Shown here: positions 7,782 through 21,877 of the stretch, piece by piece
Layout of the letters: each line of letters starts with the position of its first letter
Numbering within the stretch: position 1 is the first letter of the stretch
DNA from: Massilia sp.
GTDB taxonomy: Bacteria > Pseudomonadota > Gammaproteobacteria > Burkholderiales > Burkholderiaceae_D
Reading direction: 5' to 3'
NCBI GenBank assembly: GCA_025359245.1
Contig: JANYGW010000078.1
Location: 1 to 34,053, forward strand
Length of the DNA stretch: 34,053 nt
Made by a program: the position numbers and the translations under genes
The notes under the pieces: generated by a model
Databases searched by the model: none
Told to the model about the DNA's origin: nothing
What the model saw: the letters and a program-made list of their open reading frames with translations, nothing else

Positions 7782-10496
7782 ATGTTCACCATTGATAAGA
7801 CCCTTTCTGCCCGCCTGCTTTTGCTCGGCTACGGCGCCACGCTGGCCGCCCTGTTCGTGTTCGGCTGCATGGCCATGCTGACCTCGCCCCGTCCGGCCAG
7901 CGCGACCGAAATCTTCGCCGCCACCGCGGTCCTGATCGCGGTCTTCGTGCTGCTGGTCACGGCCAGGAAAAGCGCCGCGCCGCACGCCGACGCGCTCCAT
8001 CCGGTGTCGCAGTCGCTGATCAAGGCCGGCGCCCTGCAGCACGCGATTTTCAACAGCGCCAATTTCTCCTCCATCGCCACCGATGCCCAGGGCGTGATCC
8101 AGATCTTCAACGTGGGCGCCGAACGCATGCTCGGCTACGCCGCCGCCGACGTCGTCGACCGCATCACCCCGGCCGATATTTCCGACGCCCAGGAAGTGAT
8201 CGCGCGCGCCAAGAGCCTGTCGGTCGAACTGGACGCGCAGATCGCGCCCGGCTTCGAGGCGCTGGTGTTCAAGGCCTCGCGCGGCATCGAAGATATTTAC
8301 GAACTGACCTACATCCGCAAGGACGGCAGCCGCTTTCCGGCGGTGGTCTCGGTAACCGCGCTGCGCGACGCCGAGGAAGCCATCATCGGCTACCTCTTGA
8401 TCGGCACCGACAACACCGCCCGCAAGGAAGCCGAAGAAGCGCTGCTGCGCGCCGGCGCCCTGCAAAGCGCGATCTTCAACAGCGCCAACTTCTCCTCCAT
8501 CGCCACCGACGCCCAGGGCGTGATCCAGATTTTCAACGTCGGCGCCGAACGCATGCTCGGCTACACCGCCGCCGACGTCGTCGACAAGATCACCCCGGCC
8601 AATATCTCGGACCCGCAGGAAGTGATCGAGCGGGCCGAAACGCTGTCGCTCGAACTGGACGCCTCGATCGCGCCCGGCTTCGAGGCGCTGGTATTCAAGG
8701 CTTCGCGCGGCATCGAGGACATCTACGAGCTGACCTACATCCGCAAGGACGGCAGCCGCTTCCCGGCGATCGTGTCGGTGACGGCGCTGCGCGACGCCCA
8801 GGAAGCGATCATCGGCTACCTGCTGATCGGCACCGACAACACCGCCCGCAAGCAGGTCGAAGCCGAACAGGCGCTGCTCGACCAGAGCCTGCGCGACCAG
8901 CAGTTCTACACACGCTCGCTGATCGAATCGAATATCGACGCCATCATGACGACCGACCCGCGCGGCATCATCAGCGACGTCAACCAGCAGATGGTGGCGC
9001 TGACCGGACGCACCCGCGACGAAATGATCGGCGCCCCGTTCAAGAATTACTTCACCGACCAGAACCGCGCCGAAGCCGGCATCAAGCGCGTGCTGCGCGA
9101 AGGCAAGGTCACCAACTACGAGCTGACCGCCCTCGCGCGCGACGGCAAGGAAACCGTGGTGTCCTACAACGCCACCACCTTCTACGACCGCGACCGCAAC
9201 CTCAAGGGCGTGTTCGCCGCCGCGCGCGACGTCACCGAACGCAAGCAATTCGAACTGACGCTGCAGGAAAACAATGTCGAACTCGAAAGCGCGAAAGCGG
9301 CCGCCGAGAAGGCCAACCTGGCCAAGTCCGATTTCCTGTCGTCGATGAGCCATGAACTGCGCACCCCGCTCAACGGCGTGCTCGGCTTTGCCCAGCTGAT
9401 GGAGTCGGCCGAACCGCCGCCGTCGCCGGCGCAGATGCGCTCGATCAGCCAGATCCTCAAGGGCGGCTGGTATCTGCTGCGCCTGATTAACGAAATCCTC
9501 GACCTGGCGATGATCGAGTCGGGCAAGGTCACCATTTCGTCGGAACCGATGTCGCTGGCCGAAGTCCTGCTCGACTGCAATGTGCTGATCGGGCCGCAGG
9601 CGCAAAGCCGCGGCATCGGACTGGTGTTCCCGTCCTTCGACGACGCGCTCTACATCCACGCCGACCTGACCCGCATCAAGCAGGTGATGATCAACCTGCT
9701 GTCGAACGCGATCAAGTACAACCGTCCCGGCGGCGTGGTGACGGTGCGCTACGAGCGCCACGGCACGGACCGGGTGCGCATCCACGTGGCCGACAGCGGC
9801 GCCGGCCTGGCGCCGGCCCAGCTGGCGCAACTGTTCCAGCCGTTCAACCGGCTGGGCCAGGAAAACAGCACCGAGGAAGGCACCGGCATCGGCCTGGTCG
9901 TGACCAAGCAGCTGGTCGAACTGATGAGCGGCACCATCGGCGTGACCAGCACGCCGGGCATCGGCACCGAATTCTGGGTCGAATTTCCGGCCGCCCAAGC
10001 GCCGGCGCTCGACGAGTCGGCCCATCCGGAAGGGGTAGTCCCCGCCATCGGCGCCAGCGTGCCGGCGCGCGACACCAAACAGCGCACCTTGCTGTATGTG
10101 GAAGACAATCCGGCCAACATGGAACTGGTCGAGCAGCTCATTTCGCGCCGCACCGACCTCAAGCTGCTGACGGCGATCAACGGCCACCTCGGCATCGTGC
10201 TGGCGCGCGCCTGCCAGCCCGACGTCATCCTGATGGACATCAACCTGCCCGGCCTGTCCGGTTTCGGTTGCCTGAAGATCCTGCGCAACGACCCGGCCAC
10301 GGCCCACATTCCGGTGATGGCGCTGTCGGCCAACGCGGTGCCGCGCGATATCGAAAAAGGCATGGAAGCGGGCTTCTTCCGCTACCTGACCAAGCCGATC
10401 AAGGTGGTCGAATTCATGGGCGCGCTCGACCTCGCCCTCGATTTCGCATCCCAGCGCGGCCTGGCGCCGGAACTGCATCCCGCCGGCGAACAGTAA
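7782..10496 (+). CDS. Hybrid sensor histidine kinase with duplicated PAS domains and C-terminal receiver
   Basis: A 904-residue protein. Two N-terminal membrane segments (about 8-33 and 43-60) with almost no periplasmic loop suggest cytoplasmic or intramembrane sensing. Residues 82-223 and 224-365 are nearly identical PAS/PAC units (each with ANFSSIATDAQGVIQIFNVGAERMLGY split by few changes), a 426-bp tandem duplication. A third, distinct PAS covers about 375-495 (DAIMTTDPRGIISDVNQQM). HisKA follows with the H-box SHELRTPLNG (His524). HATPase motifs are NLLSNAIKYN, DSGAGL and EGTGIGL. The receiver (about 768-890) has the acidic pair VEDN, phospho-acceptor Asp819 in ILMDINLPG, and TKPIK. No output domain or adjacent regulator is present, so it probably signals by phosphorelay to a distant partner. 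Confidence 0.95.
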   Translation: MFTIDKTLSARLLLLGYGATLAALFVFGCMAMLTSPRPASATEIFAATAVLIAVFVLLVTARKSAAPHADALHPVSQSLIKAGALQHAIFNSANFSSIATDAQGVIQIFNVGAERMLGYAAADVVDRITPADISDAQEVIARAKSLSVELDAQIAPGFEALVFKASRGIEDIYELTYIRKDGSRFPAVVSVTALRDAEEAIIGYLLIGTDNTARKEAEEALLRAGALQSAIFNSANFSSIATDAQGVIQIFNVGAERMLGYTAADVVDKITPANISDPQEVIERAETLSLELDASIAPGFEALVFKASRGIEDIYELTYIRKDGSRFPAIVSVTALRDAQEAIIGYLLIGTDNTARKQVEAEQALLDQSLRDQQFYTRSLIESNIDAIMTTDPRGIISDVNQQMVALTGRTRDEMIGAPFKNYFTDQNRAEAGIKRVLREGKVTNYELTALARDGKETVVSYNATTFYDRDRNLKGVFAAARDVTERKQFELTLQENNVELESAKAAAEKANLAKSDFLSSMSHELRTPLNGVLGFAQLMESAEPPPSPAQMRSISQILKGGWYLLRLINEILDLAMIESGKVTISSEPMSLAEVLLDCNVLIGPQAQSRGIGLVFPSFDDALYIHADLTRIKQVMINLLSNAIKYNRPGGVVTVRYERHGTDRVRIHVADSGAGLAPAQLAQLFQPFNRLGQENSTEEGTGIGLVVTKQLVELMSGTIGVTSTPGIGTEFWVEFPAAQAPALDESAHPEGVVPAIGASVPARDTKQRTLLYVEDNPANMELVEQLISRRTDLKLLTAINGHLGIVLARACQPDVILMDINLPGLSGFGCLKILRNDPATAHIPVMALSANAVPRDIEKGMEAGFFRYLTKPIKVVEFMGALDLALDFASQRGLAPELHPAGEQ
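8025..8876 (+). repeat. 426-bp in-frame tandem duplication within the kinase gene
   Basis: Copies at about 8025-8450 and 8451-8876 are offset by exactly 426 bp (142 codons). At protein level they differ at only about a dozen of some 130 positions. Each copy encodes one PAS-PAC unit. The closeness implies recent duplication or continuing gene conversion. Confidence 0.85.
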
Positions 10497-11824: not shown

Positions 11825-12631
11825 TTAAAGAAAGCAACAGCGCGCCCGCACCTGCTGGACGTAGCGCTCGCTGACCGGCACCGCCTGCCCGCCGCGCAGG
11901 CGCAGCAGGTAGCTGCCATCGCCCACCACCTCCAGCGTGCTGGCCTGGTCCGCCCGCACGATGGCGCCGCGATGGGCGCGCACGAACAGCGCCGGATCCA
12001 GGCTGTGTTCCAGTGTTCCAAGCGGCAGCCGATGCAAGACGCTGCGCCCGGCCGTGTGCAATTCGACGTAATTGCCCGCCGCGCGTATCCACAGCACCTC
12101 GTCCATCTGGATCACTTCGATCTTCCCGACCGAGCGTACCGTCAGCTGCCGCGCGTAGCCCGGTACACCGCCGTCGGCGTGCCGGTCGCGCGCGTCGAGG
12201 AAGGCGCGCATCGCCTGCCCGTACGGCCCGCGCTGGCGCAGCGCCAGCATCTGCGCGGCGCGCGCCAGGGCCTGCGCCAGCCGCTGCGCGTTGAACGGCT
12301 TGAGCAGGTAGTCGAGCGCGTGCATCTCGAACGCATCGACCGCGTACGCATCGAAGGCGGTGACGAAGATGACCAGCGGCGGTTCGGGTTCGGCGCACAG
12401 GCTGCGCGCCAGGCTCAGGCCCGATTCGAGCGGCATCTGGATGTCCAGGAACACCACGTCGACCTGCCCCGCCGCCAGCGCCTTGCGCGCTTCGGCGGCG
12501 CTGGCGCATTCGCCCACGACCTCCCAGCCGGCGTGCGCCTCCAGCATGCAGCGCACGTTGATCCGGCCCGGCTCCTCGTCGTCGACGACCAGTGCCCGCA
12601 CGCGCGGCGCTGGCGGCTTATTCGGGAGCAT
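11825..12631 (-). CDS. LytTR-type response regulator
   Basis: A 268-residue protein starting at the ATG at 12631; an upstream TTG frame extension is less likely. The N-terminal receiver (about 11-130) has the acidic pair DDEE, phospho-acceptor Asp63 in VVFLDIQMP, FVTAFDAYA and the YLLKPF lysine. The C-terminal LytTR DNA-binding domain (about 160-262) shows VIQMDEVLWIRAAGNYVELH, then FVRAHRGAIV and GSYLLRLRGG. LytTR proteins bind paired direct-repeat sites. Its start overlaps the end of the upstream kinase gene by 14 nt, so the two are co-transcribed and translationally coupled. The regulated genes are not evident. Confidence 0.95.
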   Translation of the reverse strand: MLPNKPPAPRVRALVVDDEEPGRINVRCMLEAHAGWEVVGECASAAEARKALAAGQVDVVFLDIQMPLESGLSLARSLCAEPEPPLVIFVTAFDAYAVDAFEMHALDYLLKPFNAQRLAQALARAAQMLALRQRGPYGQAMRAFLDARDRHADGGVPGYARQLTVRSVGKIEVIQMDEVLWIRAAGNYVELHTAGRSVLHRLPLGTLEHSLDPALFVRAHRGAIVRADQASTLEVVGDGSYLLRLRGGQAVPVSERYVQQVRARCCFL

Positions 12632-13739
12632 GGGCCGGCATCGCGATCGCAACCTCGAAGCGCCCGTCGACGACGCCGGCCCGCAGCGTTGCCGCGCCGC
12701 CGTACGCGAGCCGCAAGCGCCCTTCGATATTGCGCAGGCCCAGGCCGACGCCGGGGTTGTGCGCCGCGCCGCTGTGCACCGGGTTGCTGATGCGGATCAG
12801 CAGTTGGTCATCGTGGCGCTCGAACGCCAGCAGGATATCGCTCGCACTCTCGTGGCAGTCGAGGTCATGCCGCAAGGCGTTTTCGACCAGCGGCTGCAGC
12901 AACAGCGGCGGGCAGTCGCAGTCCAGTCCCGCCTGCGCCGCGCCTTCGATGGCGATGCGCAGGCGCGCACCGTAGCGCATGCGCTGCAGGATCAGGTAGT
13001 CCTCGACGAAGCTCAGCTCGTCGGCCAGCGTGACCCAATCGCGCTCGCTGGCCGACAAGGCATAGCGCAGCAAGTCGCTCAAGCCATGGATCCCTTCCAG
13101 CGCGATGTCTTTGTCGGTGCGCACCATGGCGCTGATGGCATTCAAGGCGTTGAAGACGAAGTGCGGTTCAAGCTGCGCGCGCAGGGCCAGCCCGCGTTGC
13201 TGCTCGAGTTCCAGGCGCAGCCCCAGCGCGTCCGCCTGCGCCTGCGCCCAGTCGCGCGCGCGGGCCTGGCTTTGCTGCCAGATCTTGACGGCGGCGACCG
13301 CAAAATAGACAGCCGTGATCGCGGTCCAGTGCACGATGGGGATCGCCTTGCCGTAGGTCTCGATGGCGGCCCAGCCGGCGCTGTCGCCGAACACATAGGC
13401 CTTCGCCACGAACAGCAGCTGCAAGGGCAGCAGCGCCAGCATGAGCACGGCGTAGCCGCACGAAATCGTCGTGGCGTTCGCGACGATCGCCGGCCAGCGG
13501 CTCATGCCCAGGTACAGGATAAAACTGAGGCAAGCCAGCGTCATCGATGTCTTGCACGACGAAATAAAAATCAGCCACAAGCTGCCTTCGACGCCGAACC
13601 GGAGATCGTCGTTCAGCGAAGTGAGCGTGCCCATCGCGCTGAGGATCAGCCAGATGGCGACATTGGCCGCCAATACCAGTAGCGCCCTCCTCCACGCGGG
13701 AGGCGGCGCTGCAACGAAAGCATGGACGGTAGTGGTCAT
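12618..13739 (-). CDS. LytS/YehU-type membrane sensor histidine kinase
   Basis: A 373-residue protein from the ATG at 13739; an ATG at 13781 would add 14 residues and cannot be excluded. Four hydrophobic segments lie at about 20-38, 52-78, 85-113 and 133-152. A short coiled linker then leads to the His_kinase domain with H-box LEPHFVFNALNAISAMV (His193), the family signature in place of a classical HisKA. The ATPase region has LLLQPLVENALRHDL (N-box) and GVGLGLRNIEGRL (G-box). The partner is the overlapping LytTR regulator. The gene is divergent from the M13-like gene across about 138 bp. The signal is unknown. Confidence 0.93.
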   Translation of the reverse strand: MTTTVHAFVAAPPPAWRRALLVLAANVAIWLILSAMGTLTSLNDDLRFGVEGSLWLIFISSCKTSMTLACLSFILYLGMSRWPAIVANATTISCGYAVLMLALLPLQLLFVAKAYVFGDSAGWAAIETYGKAIPIVHWTAITAVYFAVAAVKIWQQSQARARDWAQAQADALGLRLELEQQRGLALRAQLEPHFVFNALNAISAMVRTDKDIALEGIHGLSDLLRYALSASERDWVTLADELSFVEDYLILQRMRYGARLRIAIEGAAQAGLDCDCPPLLLQPLVENALRHDLDCHESASDILLAFERHDDQLLIRISNPVHSGAAHNPGVGLGLRNIEGRLRLAYGGAATLRAGVVDGRFEVAIAMPAHAPE

Positions 13740-13877
13740 GCCAGCGAGTATACCTGCGCCGCGCATGCATATGTGCCGCATTCATCCCACGGCGGCGGAG
13801 CTTCGCCCCACAGCGCACCAGCGACGCGCGCCGCGCATTCACAATCGGCGCTCATCCAACACTTCAGGGAAGCAGAA

Positions 13878-15938
13878 ATGACACCACATTATTTCGCACC
13901 ATTCGCACGCACCGCCGTGCTGCTGCTGGCCAGCGCCGCCGCCTGCCTGGCATCGGCCAGCGCCTCCGATGCGCCAGCCATGCAGGCCAGCGGCATGGAC
14001 TTGCAGACCGCGCCGGGCGACGATTTTTTCCGCTTTGCCAACGGCGGCTGGGTCGCTGCCACCGCCATCCCGGCCGACACGTCAAGCTGGGGCGTGCGCG
14101 CCCAGCTGCGCGACGCCAACCTGGCAGAAATGGCCAGGCTCTTCGCGCAGGCCTCGCAAGGAGCGCCCGGCACCACTGCCGCGGCCAGGCGCGTGGGCGA
14201 CTTCTACACTTCGCAAATGAATGCCGCCGCGATCGAAGCGAAGGGCCTGGCGCCGATCCGTCCGATGCTGGACCATATCGCCGCTATCGACAGCAGGAAG
14301 GTGCTGGCGCACTACCTCGGCACGACCTTGCGCGCCGATGTGGACCCGGTCAACCTCGGCGGCTTCGATTCCGACAACCTGTTCGGGCTGTGGGTCGCGC
14401 CCGGCCTGCATGATCCGAGCCGCCACATGCCCTACCTGCTGCAAGGCGGACTTAGCCTGCGCGACCCCGGGCAATACCTGGCCACCGACCCCGAGGGCAT
14501 CGCCCTGCTCGACGGCTATCGCCGGTTCATTGCCGCGTCGCTGGCGAAGGCCGGTCTTGCCGACACCGAGGCCAAGGCTGCCCAGGTCCTCGATCTCGAA
14601 ACGCGCATCGCGCGCATCCACGCCGACCCTGCGTCCTCGCTCGACCTGGCAAAAAGCGACCAGCTGTGGGGCCGCGCCGATTTCGCGGCCAAGGCCGCCG
14701 GCATGGACTGGGATGCGTTTTTTTCCGGCGCCGGCCTGGCGCGCCAGCAGCGCTTCGGCGCCTGGCAACCGGACGCGATCAAGGGTCTGTCGGCACTGGT
14801 GGCCTCGGCCCCGCTCGACGCCTGGAAATCCTACTTGAGCTTCCACGCCATCAATAGCAATGCCCGCTTCCTGCCCAAAGCCCTGGCTGATGCCTACTTC
14901 GCTTTCTACGATCCGATCTTCATCGGCCCCGGCCAGCACCGGCCGCTGTGGGACCACGCCGTCAACCAGACCATCGCCTTCATGCCGGGAGCAGGCCAAC
15001 CGTTCGTCGACCACCATCTGTCGCCCAAGGCCAGGGCCAAGGCGCAGGACATTGTGCGCAACATTGTCGCCGCCTTCGACCGCCGCATCGGCCAGTTGTC
15101 CTGGATGACGCCGGCCACGCGCCAGCAAGCCCACGCCAAGCTCGCGTCCATGGTCATCGGCGTCGGCGCACCGGACAAGGCAGTGAGCAATGCCGGCCTG
15201 CTGATCCGGGCCGACGACCCGTCCGGGAACATGCAGCGCACGGCCCTCTACAACTACCGGCACGAGATCGCCAAGATAGGCCGGCCGGTCGATCGCAAGG
15301 AGTGGATACTCAACGCGGAAGTATTCGGGATCAACCCGATGCCGCTGCAAAATGCGATGACGATTCCGGTCACGGAACTGCAGGCGCCGTTCTTCGATCC
15401 GGACGGCTCGGATGCCGACAACTACGCGGCTATCGGCGTCCGGGTCGGACGCTTCCTCGCCCTCGCCTTCGACAGCAAGGGCAGCCGCTTCGATGCCGAA
15501 GGCCGTTTGCGCAACTGGTGGAGCAGCGCTGACCAGGATCAGTTCACCAAGGCCGCCCAGGCCATGGTGGCGCAATACGCAAGCTACGCGCCATTCCCGG
15601 ACGTGAAGATCAACGGCGCGCGCACGCTCAACGACAACGTCGCCGACCACGCCGGCCTGCTGGCCGCCTACGACGCCTTCCAGGCGGTGCGCGCCGCCCG
15701 GCACGATACCGACAGCGACCAGCTGGCGGCGCAGCGCTTCTTCACCGCCTATGCCAGGAGCTTGCGCGTCAAGAGCAGCGAAGAAGCCTTGCGCGGACAG
15801 GCGCTCGGCAGCCCGCAGGCGCCGGCCATGTACCGGGTCGCGGCGGTGCGCAACCTCGATGCGTGGTACGCCGCGTTCGACGTCGTGCCGGGACAGTCGC
15901 TGTATCTGGCACCGGGCGACAGGGTGCGCATCTGGTAA
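13878..15938 (+). CDS. M13 (neprilysin/PepO) family protein lacking the zinc-binding motif
   Basis: A 686-residue secreted protein. The ATG at 13878 is chosen because AGGGA lies 7 nt before it and a signal peptide follows (about residues 1-30, ending ASASA-SDAP). The M13 N-terminal opening is present (MDLQTAPGDDFFRFANGGW), as is the C-terminal family ending (NLDAWYAAFDVVPGQSLYLAPGDRVRIW). In active members the core reads GHExxHGFD; here it is G-R525-F-L-A-L529-A-F-D, so both zinc histidines and the catalytic glutamate are gone. The third-ligand motif GENIAD has become NDNVAD (Glu to Asp586). The fold should be intact and the frame is open, so this looks like a pseudo-peptidase with a binding or regulatory role. 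It is divergent from the LytS-type kinase. Confidence 0.9.
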   Translation: MTPHYFAPFARTAVLLLASAAACLASASASDAPAMQASGMDLQTAPGDDFFRFANGGWVAATAIPADTSSWGVRAQLRDANLAEMARLFAQASQGAPGTTAAARRVGDFYTSQMNAAAIEAKGLAPIRPMLDHIAAIDSRKVLAHYLGTTLRADVDPVNLGGFDSDNLFGLWVAPGLHDPSRHMPYLLQGGLSLRDPGQYLATDPEGIALLDGYRRFIAASLAKAGLADTEAKAAQVLDLETRIARIHADPASSLDLAKSDQLWGRADFAAKAAGMDWDAFFSGAGLARQQRFGAWQPDAIKGLSALVASAPLDAWKSYLSFHAINSNARFLPKALADAYFAFYDPIFIGPGQHRPLWDHAVNQTIAFMPGAGQPFVDHHLSPKARAKAQDIVRNIVAAFDRRIGQLSWMTPATRQQAHAKLASMVIGVGAPDKAVSNAGLLIRADDPSGNMQRTALYNYRHEIAKIGRPVDRKEWILNAEVFGINPMPLQNAMTIPVTELQAPFFDPDGSDADNYAAIGVRVGRFLALAFDSKGSRFDAEGRLRNWWSSADQDQFTKAAQAMVAQYASYAPFPDVKINGARTLNDNVADHAGLLAAYDAFQAVRAARHDTDSDQLAAQRFFTAYARSLRVKSSEEALRGQALGSPQAPAMYRVAAVRNLDAWYAAFDVVPGQSLYLAPGDRVRIW

Positions 15939-20590: not shown

Positions 20591-21877
20591 CTAGTTGAGA
20601 GAGGGTTGCAGGCATTGGTTTACGAGTGTTAACCTCGGTTTGCCAACTTAAAAACCAAACCTGCAACATGTTTAGAATAACGACTTTTCAAGAATTAATG
20701 AAGGGGCTGCCGCGCAGCACCTTCGACAAAGTGGTCAAGAAACACAACGCCGACAAGTACTGCAAGCGCTTTGGCCACTGGGACCATCTGATTGCCATGT
20801 CGTACGCGCAATTGAGTGGCACTACGGGCCTGAGGCCTTTGCAGACTGCCTTCAACAGCCACGAGGCGCACCTCTATCACCTGGGAACAACGCCAATCAA
20901 GCGTTCAACACTCGCCGATGCCAATGAAAATCGCGCCGATACGGTCTTTGGCGAGGTTGCCACGTGGTTGATGGGACAGGTTTCCGGCCAATTGCGCCAA
21001 GACGCCAGAGAGTTAATGTTCCTGCTCGACTCGACGTCTGTGACGCTCAAGGGGCGTGAGTTTGATCGGTGGACTTCGAGCAACCAGACTCGCAATACGC
21101 AAGGAATCAAACTGCATGTCTTACTCGAATCGGCGTCGGAAACGCCCTCGTGGACGCGCTTTAGTGCCGCCAATGTCAACGATGTGGAATTGGCCGCCGA
21201 AGTCCCATTGCAGGAAGGGGCGCTCTACGTCTTCGACAAAGGCTACTGTGACTACAACTGGTGGTACAGCATCGGTTTGGCCGGTGCGCGCTTCGTTACC
21301 CGATTTAAATACAACGCCGGGCTGAGAGTCGTCGAGGACCGCGACATCCCAGTTGAAGATCAGGACGTAGTGCTGCAAGATCAGGTCGTCAAATTCAAGA
21401 GGAAGTACCCCGGTGGTGGGCGTGTCAACAAGCACTTCGACAAGCCGCTCCGCCGTGTCACGATTGTGCGGCCGGATAAACCTACACCTCTGGTGCTGGC
21501 GACCAACGACTTCAAGGCAAGCGCAAAGGAAATTGCCCAGCGCTACAAAGAACGCTGGGCAATTGAACTGTTCTTCAAATGGATCAAGCAGCACTTGAAG
21601 ATCAAGAAATTTCTTGGTCGCACAGAAAATGCGGTGCGCATTCAAATACTTACAGCGCTCATTAGCTATTTGCTAGTGGCACTTCACAAGCAACGGCACA
21701 ACTTGAAACAAAGTCTCTGGGACTGCTTATGCCTCATTCGCGTCGCGATGTTCCAGCACTTCGAAGCAGAAGAATCTCCCTTTCGAAGGCGACGACGAGA
21801 CGCCCAATTTGCCGCCCAAATGCAAGGAGGTCTATTCTAAGTGCAGGTCAAGAACTTTATTCCGGACAGCAGTGTGC
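20561..21877 (+). mobile_element. IS4-family insertion sequence, complete
   Basis: A single transposase gene is flanked by inverted repeats. The left end at 20561 reads GCACACTGCTGTCCGGGATAA; the right end, read inward from 21877, reads GCACACTGCTGTCCGGAATAA. Weaker similarity continues to TTGAC about 30 bp in. Homology between the two sides also continues outward (CGTCGTCC-CGCG and ACAAGAA-CAACG) to about 20533 and 21905. Either the true inverted repeats are ~58 bp or the element sits inside a palindromic target. Length is 1,317 bp by the inner ends. No simple target duplication was identified. Confidence 0.8.
20668..21840 (+). CDS. IS4-family transposase with N-terminal DUF4372 domain
   Basis: A 390-residue DDE transposase. 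The ATG at 20668 begins the family N-terminus (MFRITTFQELMKGLPRSTFD), a DUF4372 domain to about residue 75 with FGHWDHLIAMSYAQLSG. The catalytic core has Asp121 (FLLDSTSV), Asp190 (YVFDKGYCDYNWW) and Glu300 in the IS4 signature Y293-xx-R296-xxx-E300-x6-K307 (YKERWAIELFFKWIK). All residues of the Y(2)R(3)E(6)K motif are present, so the enzyme looks intact. The frame closes just before the right inverted repeat. It lies directly downstream of the sugar locus, convergent with the kinase–RpiR gene. Confidence 0.95.
   Translation: MFRITTFQELMKGLPRSTFDKVVKKHNADKYCKRFGHWDHLIAMSYAQLSGTTGLRPLQTAFNSHEAHLYHLGTTPIKRSTLADANENRADTVFGEVATWLMGQVSGQLRQDARELMFLLDSTSVTLKGREFDRWTSSNQTRNTQGIKLHVLLESASETPSWTRFSAANVNDVELAAEVPLQEGALYVFDKGYCDYNWWYSIGLAGARFVTRFKYNAGLRVVEDRDIPVEDQDVVLQDQVVKFKRKYPGGGRVNKHFDKPLRRVTIVRPDKPTPLVLATNDFKASAKEIAQRYKERWAIELFFKWIKQHLKIKKFLGRTENAVRIQILTALISYLLVALHKQRHNLKQSLWDCLCLIRVAMFQHFEAEESPFRRRRRDAQFAAQMQGGLF

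Follow-up and report, generated by a model that had tools for sequence, protein, structure and literature searches.

A putative secreted M13 pseudopeptidase encoded divergently from a LytS/LytTR gene pair in Massilia sp.

The M13-like gene and its former active site

The 34,053-nucleotide stretch of Massilia sp. DNA analysed here (the window), which belongs to a draft genome of 244 contigs with 81.7% completeness, contains an M13 peptidase homologue and, in divergent orientation, the genes of a LytS-type histidine kinase and a LytTR response regulator (Table 1). A preliminary description made from the sequence had reported a 686-residue, in-frame M13 homologue, and the same open reading frame and translation were recovered here. 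Its membership in the M13 family follows from homology, as both Pfam domains clear their curated cut-offs: Peptidase_M13_N (PF05649) spans residues 46–432 (E-value 1.1e-83; 282.2 bits against a cut-off of 32) and Peptidase_M13 (PF01431) residues 490–682 (E-value 3.1e-38; 131.9 bits against 24.5). The N-terminal hydrophobic segment, signal-peptide-like by hydropathy scan alone, suggests that the protein is probably secreted. An AlphaFold2 model based on an alignment of 62 sequences (pLDDT 91, pTM 0.87) confidently predicts an M13 fold, and among PDB entries its first 15 Foldseek matches all belong to PepO, Zmp1, neprilysin or ECE-1, headed by PepO of P. gingivalis (TM 0.84, 27–28% identity). 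Since the underlying alignment consists of M13 homologues, the predicted fold is not independent of the homology. A viral fold library gave two matches at E < 0.001, a mimivirus zinc metalloproteinase and an unnamed protein, and no new insight.

Table 1. Features of the M13-like gene and its divergent neighbours (window coordinates)
Feature	Position	Strand	Basis
M13 peptidase homologue of 686 aa lacking the active site	13878..15938	+	ORF, translation, Pfam, AlphaFold2 model
Probable Sec-type signal peptide	13878..13973	+	Sole hydrophobic segment, residues 5–32 (hydropathy scan)
Former V-N-A substrate-binding motif (residues 483–485), now F-G-I	15324..15332	+	Alignments
Former HExxH (residues 525–529), now R-F-L-A-L; context IGVRVGRFLALAFDSKG	15450..15464	+	Alignments
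Former GENIAD (residues 585–590), now N-D-N-V-A-D; zinc-ligand Glu is Asp	15630..15647	+	Alignments
Former transition-state His (residue 647), now Gln	15816..15818	+	Alignments
LytS-type membrane histidine kinase (PF06580)	12618..13739	-	Pfam, alignment with orthologous loci
LytTR response regulator (PF00072 and PF04397), overlapping the end of the kinase gene	11825..12631	-	Pfam
Divergent intergenic region	13740..13877	.	Alignment of the intergenic regions of three carriers
Candidate direct repeat, 21-bp spacing: CCCACGGCG / CCCACAGCG	13786-13794 / 13807-13815 (intergenic)		Partly kept in orthologous loci; weak

The motifs of the family are HExxH, GENIAD and VNAFY, according to PMC2259306. 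For neprilysin, PMC7822871 assigns roles to His583, Glu584, His587, Glu646 and His711 and places Asp590 and Asp650 in Asp-His-Zn triads; Asn542 appears there in the title of a reference. In the translation and the alignments of the window protein, RFLAL at residues 525–529 and NDNVAD in place of GENIAD read just as first described. The accompanying claim that all zinc-site residues are lost holds for HExxH, but the third ligand, at position 586, is changed from Glu to Asp, a conservative replacement (both orthologues have Ser). In other respects the damage is wider than that description stated, as His 647 is Gln and the substrate-binding Asn-Ala at 484–485 is Gly-Ile. The protein thus lacks the features of an active M13 zinc peptidase, namely HExxH, the third-ligand Glu, the transition-state His (neprilysin His711) and Asn-Ala (neprilysin 542–543). 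For this last pair we assume part of the neprilysin numbering and the substrate-binding role of the Ala. A displaced HExxH, named beforehand as an observation that would refute the pseudo-peptidase reading, was looked for across the whole 686-residue sequence and is absent, as is HxxEH.

Four of the 61 rows of alignment A1 were set aside: those of the window protein and its orthologue, and the unusual sequences L098 and L106. In the other 57 M13 rows, 86 positions are at least 95% conserved. The window protein and its full-length orthologue both retain 63 of them, one of the two departs at 9, and both depart at 14. Every one of the seven positions considered for catalysis or the substrate backbone (N484, A485, H525, E526, H529, E586 and H647) is among these 14. 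According to the alignment, D590, four residues past the lost Glu, and R653 are kept in the window protein. Judged from these replacements, it would be unable to bind the catalytic zinc or to hydrolyse peptides.

Orthologues, distribution and comparison with other M13 genes

Two orthologues were found. The first is encoded in a 100% complete assembly from a different genus of the same family (G411); it is full length, 55% identical to the window protein, and has YYISL for HExxH, GSNVAD for GENIAD, Val for the transition-state His and Gly-Tyr for Asn-Ala. The second (G006) stems from the same genus as the window, in a single-contig assembly rated 48% complete, and is split by frame breaks, which point to assembly indels, since the two other M13 loci of this assembly are also broken. 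GTRIA, RFIGIGLD and SRFDAKGR are encoded in three successive frames around its former site, giving RFIGI for HExxH, and the GENIAD position reads NSNHAD. When its unjoined pieces are compared with the 150 M13 rows introduced below, three of them match the window protein best, with identities of 59, 63 and 63%. The fourth, C-terminal piece shares 50–51% with the window protein, which lies outside its top six matches, the first of them being an active-type row (54%). In a quick tree of the 150 rows, calculated without bootstrap and not including G006, the window and G411 proteins group with an SH-aLRT support of 100. The loss of the catalytic residues is therefore kept in three carriers, two of them full-length, and orthologues with an intact HExxH, the other observation named in advance as refuting the pseudo-peptidase reading, were not encountered, as both G411 and G006 lack the motif. 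Recent decay or a sequencing error at a single site is disfavoured, because these two further genomes have also lost the site. The replacements differ among the carriers (RFLAL in the window, RFIGI in G006, YYISL in G411), so that the old site has little in common beyond Phe483-Gly484, an aromatic residue at 526 and Leu or Ile at 529.

Searches of 60 relatives, 17 genomes of the genus (E-value up to 1e-100) and 392 of the family (up to 1e-170, the two best candidates being scored per genome) yielded the window gene, the G006 pieces, which surfaced solely among the 60 relatives, and the G411 gene; for further family matches, the motif was read in those returned as loci (30 at most). The genome sets of these and the following searches overlap. 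In 74 genomes of the genus of G411, this genome alone has the gene (E-value up to 1e-188), and no carrier was detected in three other genera, represented by 62, 40 and 43 genomes (up to 1e-195). An order-wide search of 399 genomes, again with the two best candidates per genome, led to ten places, one of which (L206) repeats a locus already counted; all nine besides the window gene keep HExxH. Matches in plasmid records all stayed below 60% identity, with 43% as the highest value among the best 10 of 136 records. A wide distribution of the inactive gene was thus not found in the genus, family, order or plasmid searches. As a fragmented copy like that of G006 would drop below the strict thresholds, the number of carriers is a lower bound for what appears to be a rare gene.

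Across the collected loci, 165 non-identical M13 rows were obtained (phmmer, E-value up to 1e-30), of which 150 remained after removal of 15 rows shorter than 560 residues; they are homologues fetched with the window protein as query and not a random sample. With the window copy entered a single time, 147 of these 150 full-length rows keep HExxH, and chance is therefore not a credible explanation of the loss of this motif. The exceptions are the window protein, the G411 protein and a copy from Gemmatimonadetes (L106). The window genome itself encodes four M13 proteins, and the other three have an intact HExxH, the EN[IL][AG]D motif and the C-terminal His.

Several other loci carry altered M13 genes. 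The Gemmatimonadetes homologue (L106:6001-8025) has HDISH in place of HExxH and forms, together with L098, L210 and L211, a divergent clade in which the VNA motif is altered. In the quick tree this four-row clade, on long branches, stands beside the clade of the window and G411 proteins (support 97), a placement that is not relied on because it may reflect long-branch attraction. The relatives of the gene in an Oxalobacteraceae draft (L085) and in a Massilia sp. (L058) fall among the rows of the family, which suggests that this family is Oxalobacteraceae. At L036:7291-9345(-) (equivalent to G016:C66:249293-251293; also in L124), an M13 gene that stands in tandem with another, active-type M13 gene retains HEISH, but its transition-state His is replaced by Phe and its VNA motif is altered. 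It is 42% identical to the window protein and possibly a half-degenerated copy. The M13 gene of L022/L043 (G019:C3:45342-47337) is broken by a stop and a frame change.

The divergent LytS/LytTR pair

By its domains, a PF06580 kinase with an adjacent receiver-LytTR regulator, the neighbouring pair belongs to the LytS/LytTR two-component systems. The longest reading frame of the kinase begins at 13781, but the probable start, which aligns with the orthologous loci, is 13739 (MTTTVHA...). In all three carriers the pair is divergent from the M13-like gene; the kinases of G411 and G006 are 61–67% and the regulators 59–61% identical to those of the window, the genes being split over frames in G006. 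The preliminary description had suggested that this pair might regulate the M13-like gene, a proposal that gains support from the conservation of the three-gene arrangement. The window reading frames outside 11.7–16.1 kb had no match in the 18 and 19.5 kb of the orthologous loci. In a tree of 37 kinases, those of the three carriers (G006 with a partial row) form a clade of their own, supported at 95/88, and in the loci read for sister clades, with neighbours judged by eye, the kinases adjoin other genes. More generally, a LytS/LytTR pair lies near M13 genes in 1 of 91 loci (52 of them at least 12 kb long, the rest shorter), and the association therefore does not look like a general trait of M13 genes.

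A second association of this kind was observed in six genomes of another genus (G264, G326, G282, G311, G336 and G216), where a different LytS/LytTR pair is located beside one or two active-type M13 genes (L186:1315-7823, L187:1683-5866, L188:14282-18387, L189:928-5270, L191:6958-11226 and L204:4875-9144). In L199, L200 and L203 (also L188 and L196), related pairs are near or divergent from a large reading frame with, by eye, an outer-membrane-like C-terminal end, which occupies the place of the M13-like gene in the window. A third signalling gene close to the module, at 7782-10496(+) of the window, encodes a large hybrid histidine kinase that combines several PAS domains with a receiver domain, and about 4.7 kb downstream of the M13-like gene lies a transposase gene (DDE_Tnp_1, DUF4372; 20626-21840(+)).

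The intergenic regions of the three carriers have a short element in common, with repeats 21–23 bases apart, a spacing that we take to be the layout expected of a LytTR operator. When its 13-base half element was sought beside 26 kinase loci besides that of the window, only the G006 locus had a near match (2 mismatches, shuffle p 0.04), and p was at least 0.1 at the other 25, including G411 (3 mismatches, p 0.355). Since this control supports G006 marginally and places G411 at chance level, the element is treated as a lead only.

Possible roles and relation to known M13 proteins

The loss of the site, its conservation in the orthologues and the linkage to the kinase/regulator pair, which can be read from the sequences, together with the predicted fold, led us to favour the secreted pseudo-peptidase of the preliminary description as the best reading; the narrower role proposed there, perhaps that of a peptide-binding or inhibitory paralogue, is conjecture. 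As a whole, this reading of a conserved secreted pseudopeptidase that is controlled by LytS/LytTR and most likely binds peptides has, in our estimation, an even chance of being correct. The gene would give rise to a secreted and correctly folded M13 protein that neither binds zinc nor hydrolyses peptides in vitro. Within one bacterial family, a small lineage would have retained it as a functional protein without enzymatic activity, with expression probably controlled by the divergent pair. M13 proteins have a closed chamber, and by analogy with these and with Nepl15 of Drosophila (see below) the protein would most likely hold peptides within it, as a sink or carrier. Peptides held in this way might be shielded from cleavage by the cell's three active-type M13 paralogues, or might miss a target. 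However, the substrate-gripping Asn-Ala is lost as well, which argues against ordinary, neprilysin-like peptide binding. Also counted against this reading are the number of three carriers, of which the G006 copy comes from an indel-ridden assembly and has a C-terminal piece nearer to active-type rows, the variable replacement residues, the sister kinases beside other genes, and the chance-level match of the intergenic element in G411.

Alternatively, the pseudopeptidase could be an extracytoplasmic peptide sensor or co-receptor for the LytS-type kinase, which would have no large outside domain of its own, the three gene products forming one module. The conserved divergent arrangement and the separate clade of the kinases beside the M13-like gene fit this idea, as does the part of the kinase before its catalytic region, which consists mainly of hydrophobic windows with short gaps (six overlapping windows between residues 29 and 165 in a hydropathy scan, with no long gap). 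If it were true, a peptidase would have been turned into a peptide co-receptor for a LytS-type kinase. We nevertheless consider it rather unlikely, as a direct contact between the two proteins is conjecture, the sister kinases next to other genes seem to work without an M13 partner, and the divergent orientation fits a regulated target equally well.

That the protein acts on an active M13 paralogue, as its partner or competitor (a regulatory subunit or a dominant negative), appears improbable. We know of no obligate M13 heterodimer in bacteria, and the nearest active-type paralogue is just 45–46% identical to the window protein and is encoded on another contig. In its favour, the same genome has three M13 genes with intact HExxH, and pseudopeptidases that regulate their active cousins are known in other families (PMC11266112).

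It is very improbable that the gene is a decaying pseudogene that by chance is still open. Such decay could explain why the inactive pair of the window and G411 is less similar than the pair of active orthologues in these genomes (55.1% versus 64.5% amino-acid identity), why the replacement residues vary between orthologues, and why one of the three copies (G006) is broken, although the other M13 genes of that assembly are broken too. Against it, the frames are intact in the window genome and in G411, a member of another genus, and conserved M13 residues and the neighbouring genes are retained. The proportions of differing sites at codon positions 1, 2 and 3 are 0.316, 0.290 and 0.411 for the inactive pair and 0.272, 0.233 and 0.388 for the active one; judged by these comparisons, the inactive pair is more diverged, yet still constrained. 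Moreover, when neutral drift of the gene was simulated with 10, 17 and 34% of sites changed, the frame stayed open in only 4, 1 and 0 of 300 runs, and recent decay of the window gene is thus unlikely. A different chemistry or metal site in place of the zinc site is scarcely credible: the changes are non-random, with an aromatic residue at 526 and Phe-Gly at 483–484 in the window and G411 proteins, but visual inspection shows no newly formed cluster of His, Asp, Glu or Cys at the site, the third ligand position holds Asp, Ser and Ser, and the replacements are mostly hydrophobic.

The putative peptide-binding pseudopeptidase resembles the bacterial enzymes PepO and Zmp1 in its predicted two-domain M13 fold (Foldseek TM up to 0.84), with 27–32% identity to Zmp1 and the P. 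gingivalis and T. forsythia PepO structures, and 24% to PepO of Lactobacillus. It differs from them in that the zinc-binding, catalytic and transition-state residues are gone, which cautions that full Pfam scores and a family name can overstate activity. Streptococcal PepO, which according to PMC5167397 degrades SHP quorum-sensing peptides and is under a two-component system, offers a further parallel, as a bacterial M13 protein tied to both peptide signalling and a two-component system; PepO, however, degrades peptides, whereas the window protein should not cut them. The neighbouring kinase and regulator match the families of LytS/LytTR systems (PF06580 and PF04397), and a linkage of such systems to an M13 gene was not found in the literature searched on LytTR.

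Inactive M13 homologues have been described in Drosophila: Gone early (Goe; PMC11266112 and PMC4242634) and Nepl15, which according to PMC7822871 is probably secreted, has kept its loss across the genus, and was suggested by modelling to sequester peptides. In addition, expansions of M13 proteins without catalytic residues occur in insects (PMC2259306). Goe and Nepl15 share with the window protein the replacement of key active-site positions in an M13 homologue, but they are animal proteins with other replacement residues and no link to a bacterial two-component system, and Goe is a membrane protein. All described inactive M13 homologues that we found are from insects; none from bacteria was described among the literature matches listed, which came mostly from outside subscription journals. 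With active-type relatives, three paralogues of active type in its own genome and conserved regulatory neighbours, this bacterial counterpart of the Drosophila proteins would be a tractable system in which to ask how a peptidase becomes a binding protein, and which peptide it binds.
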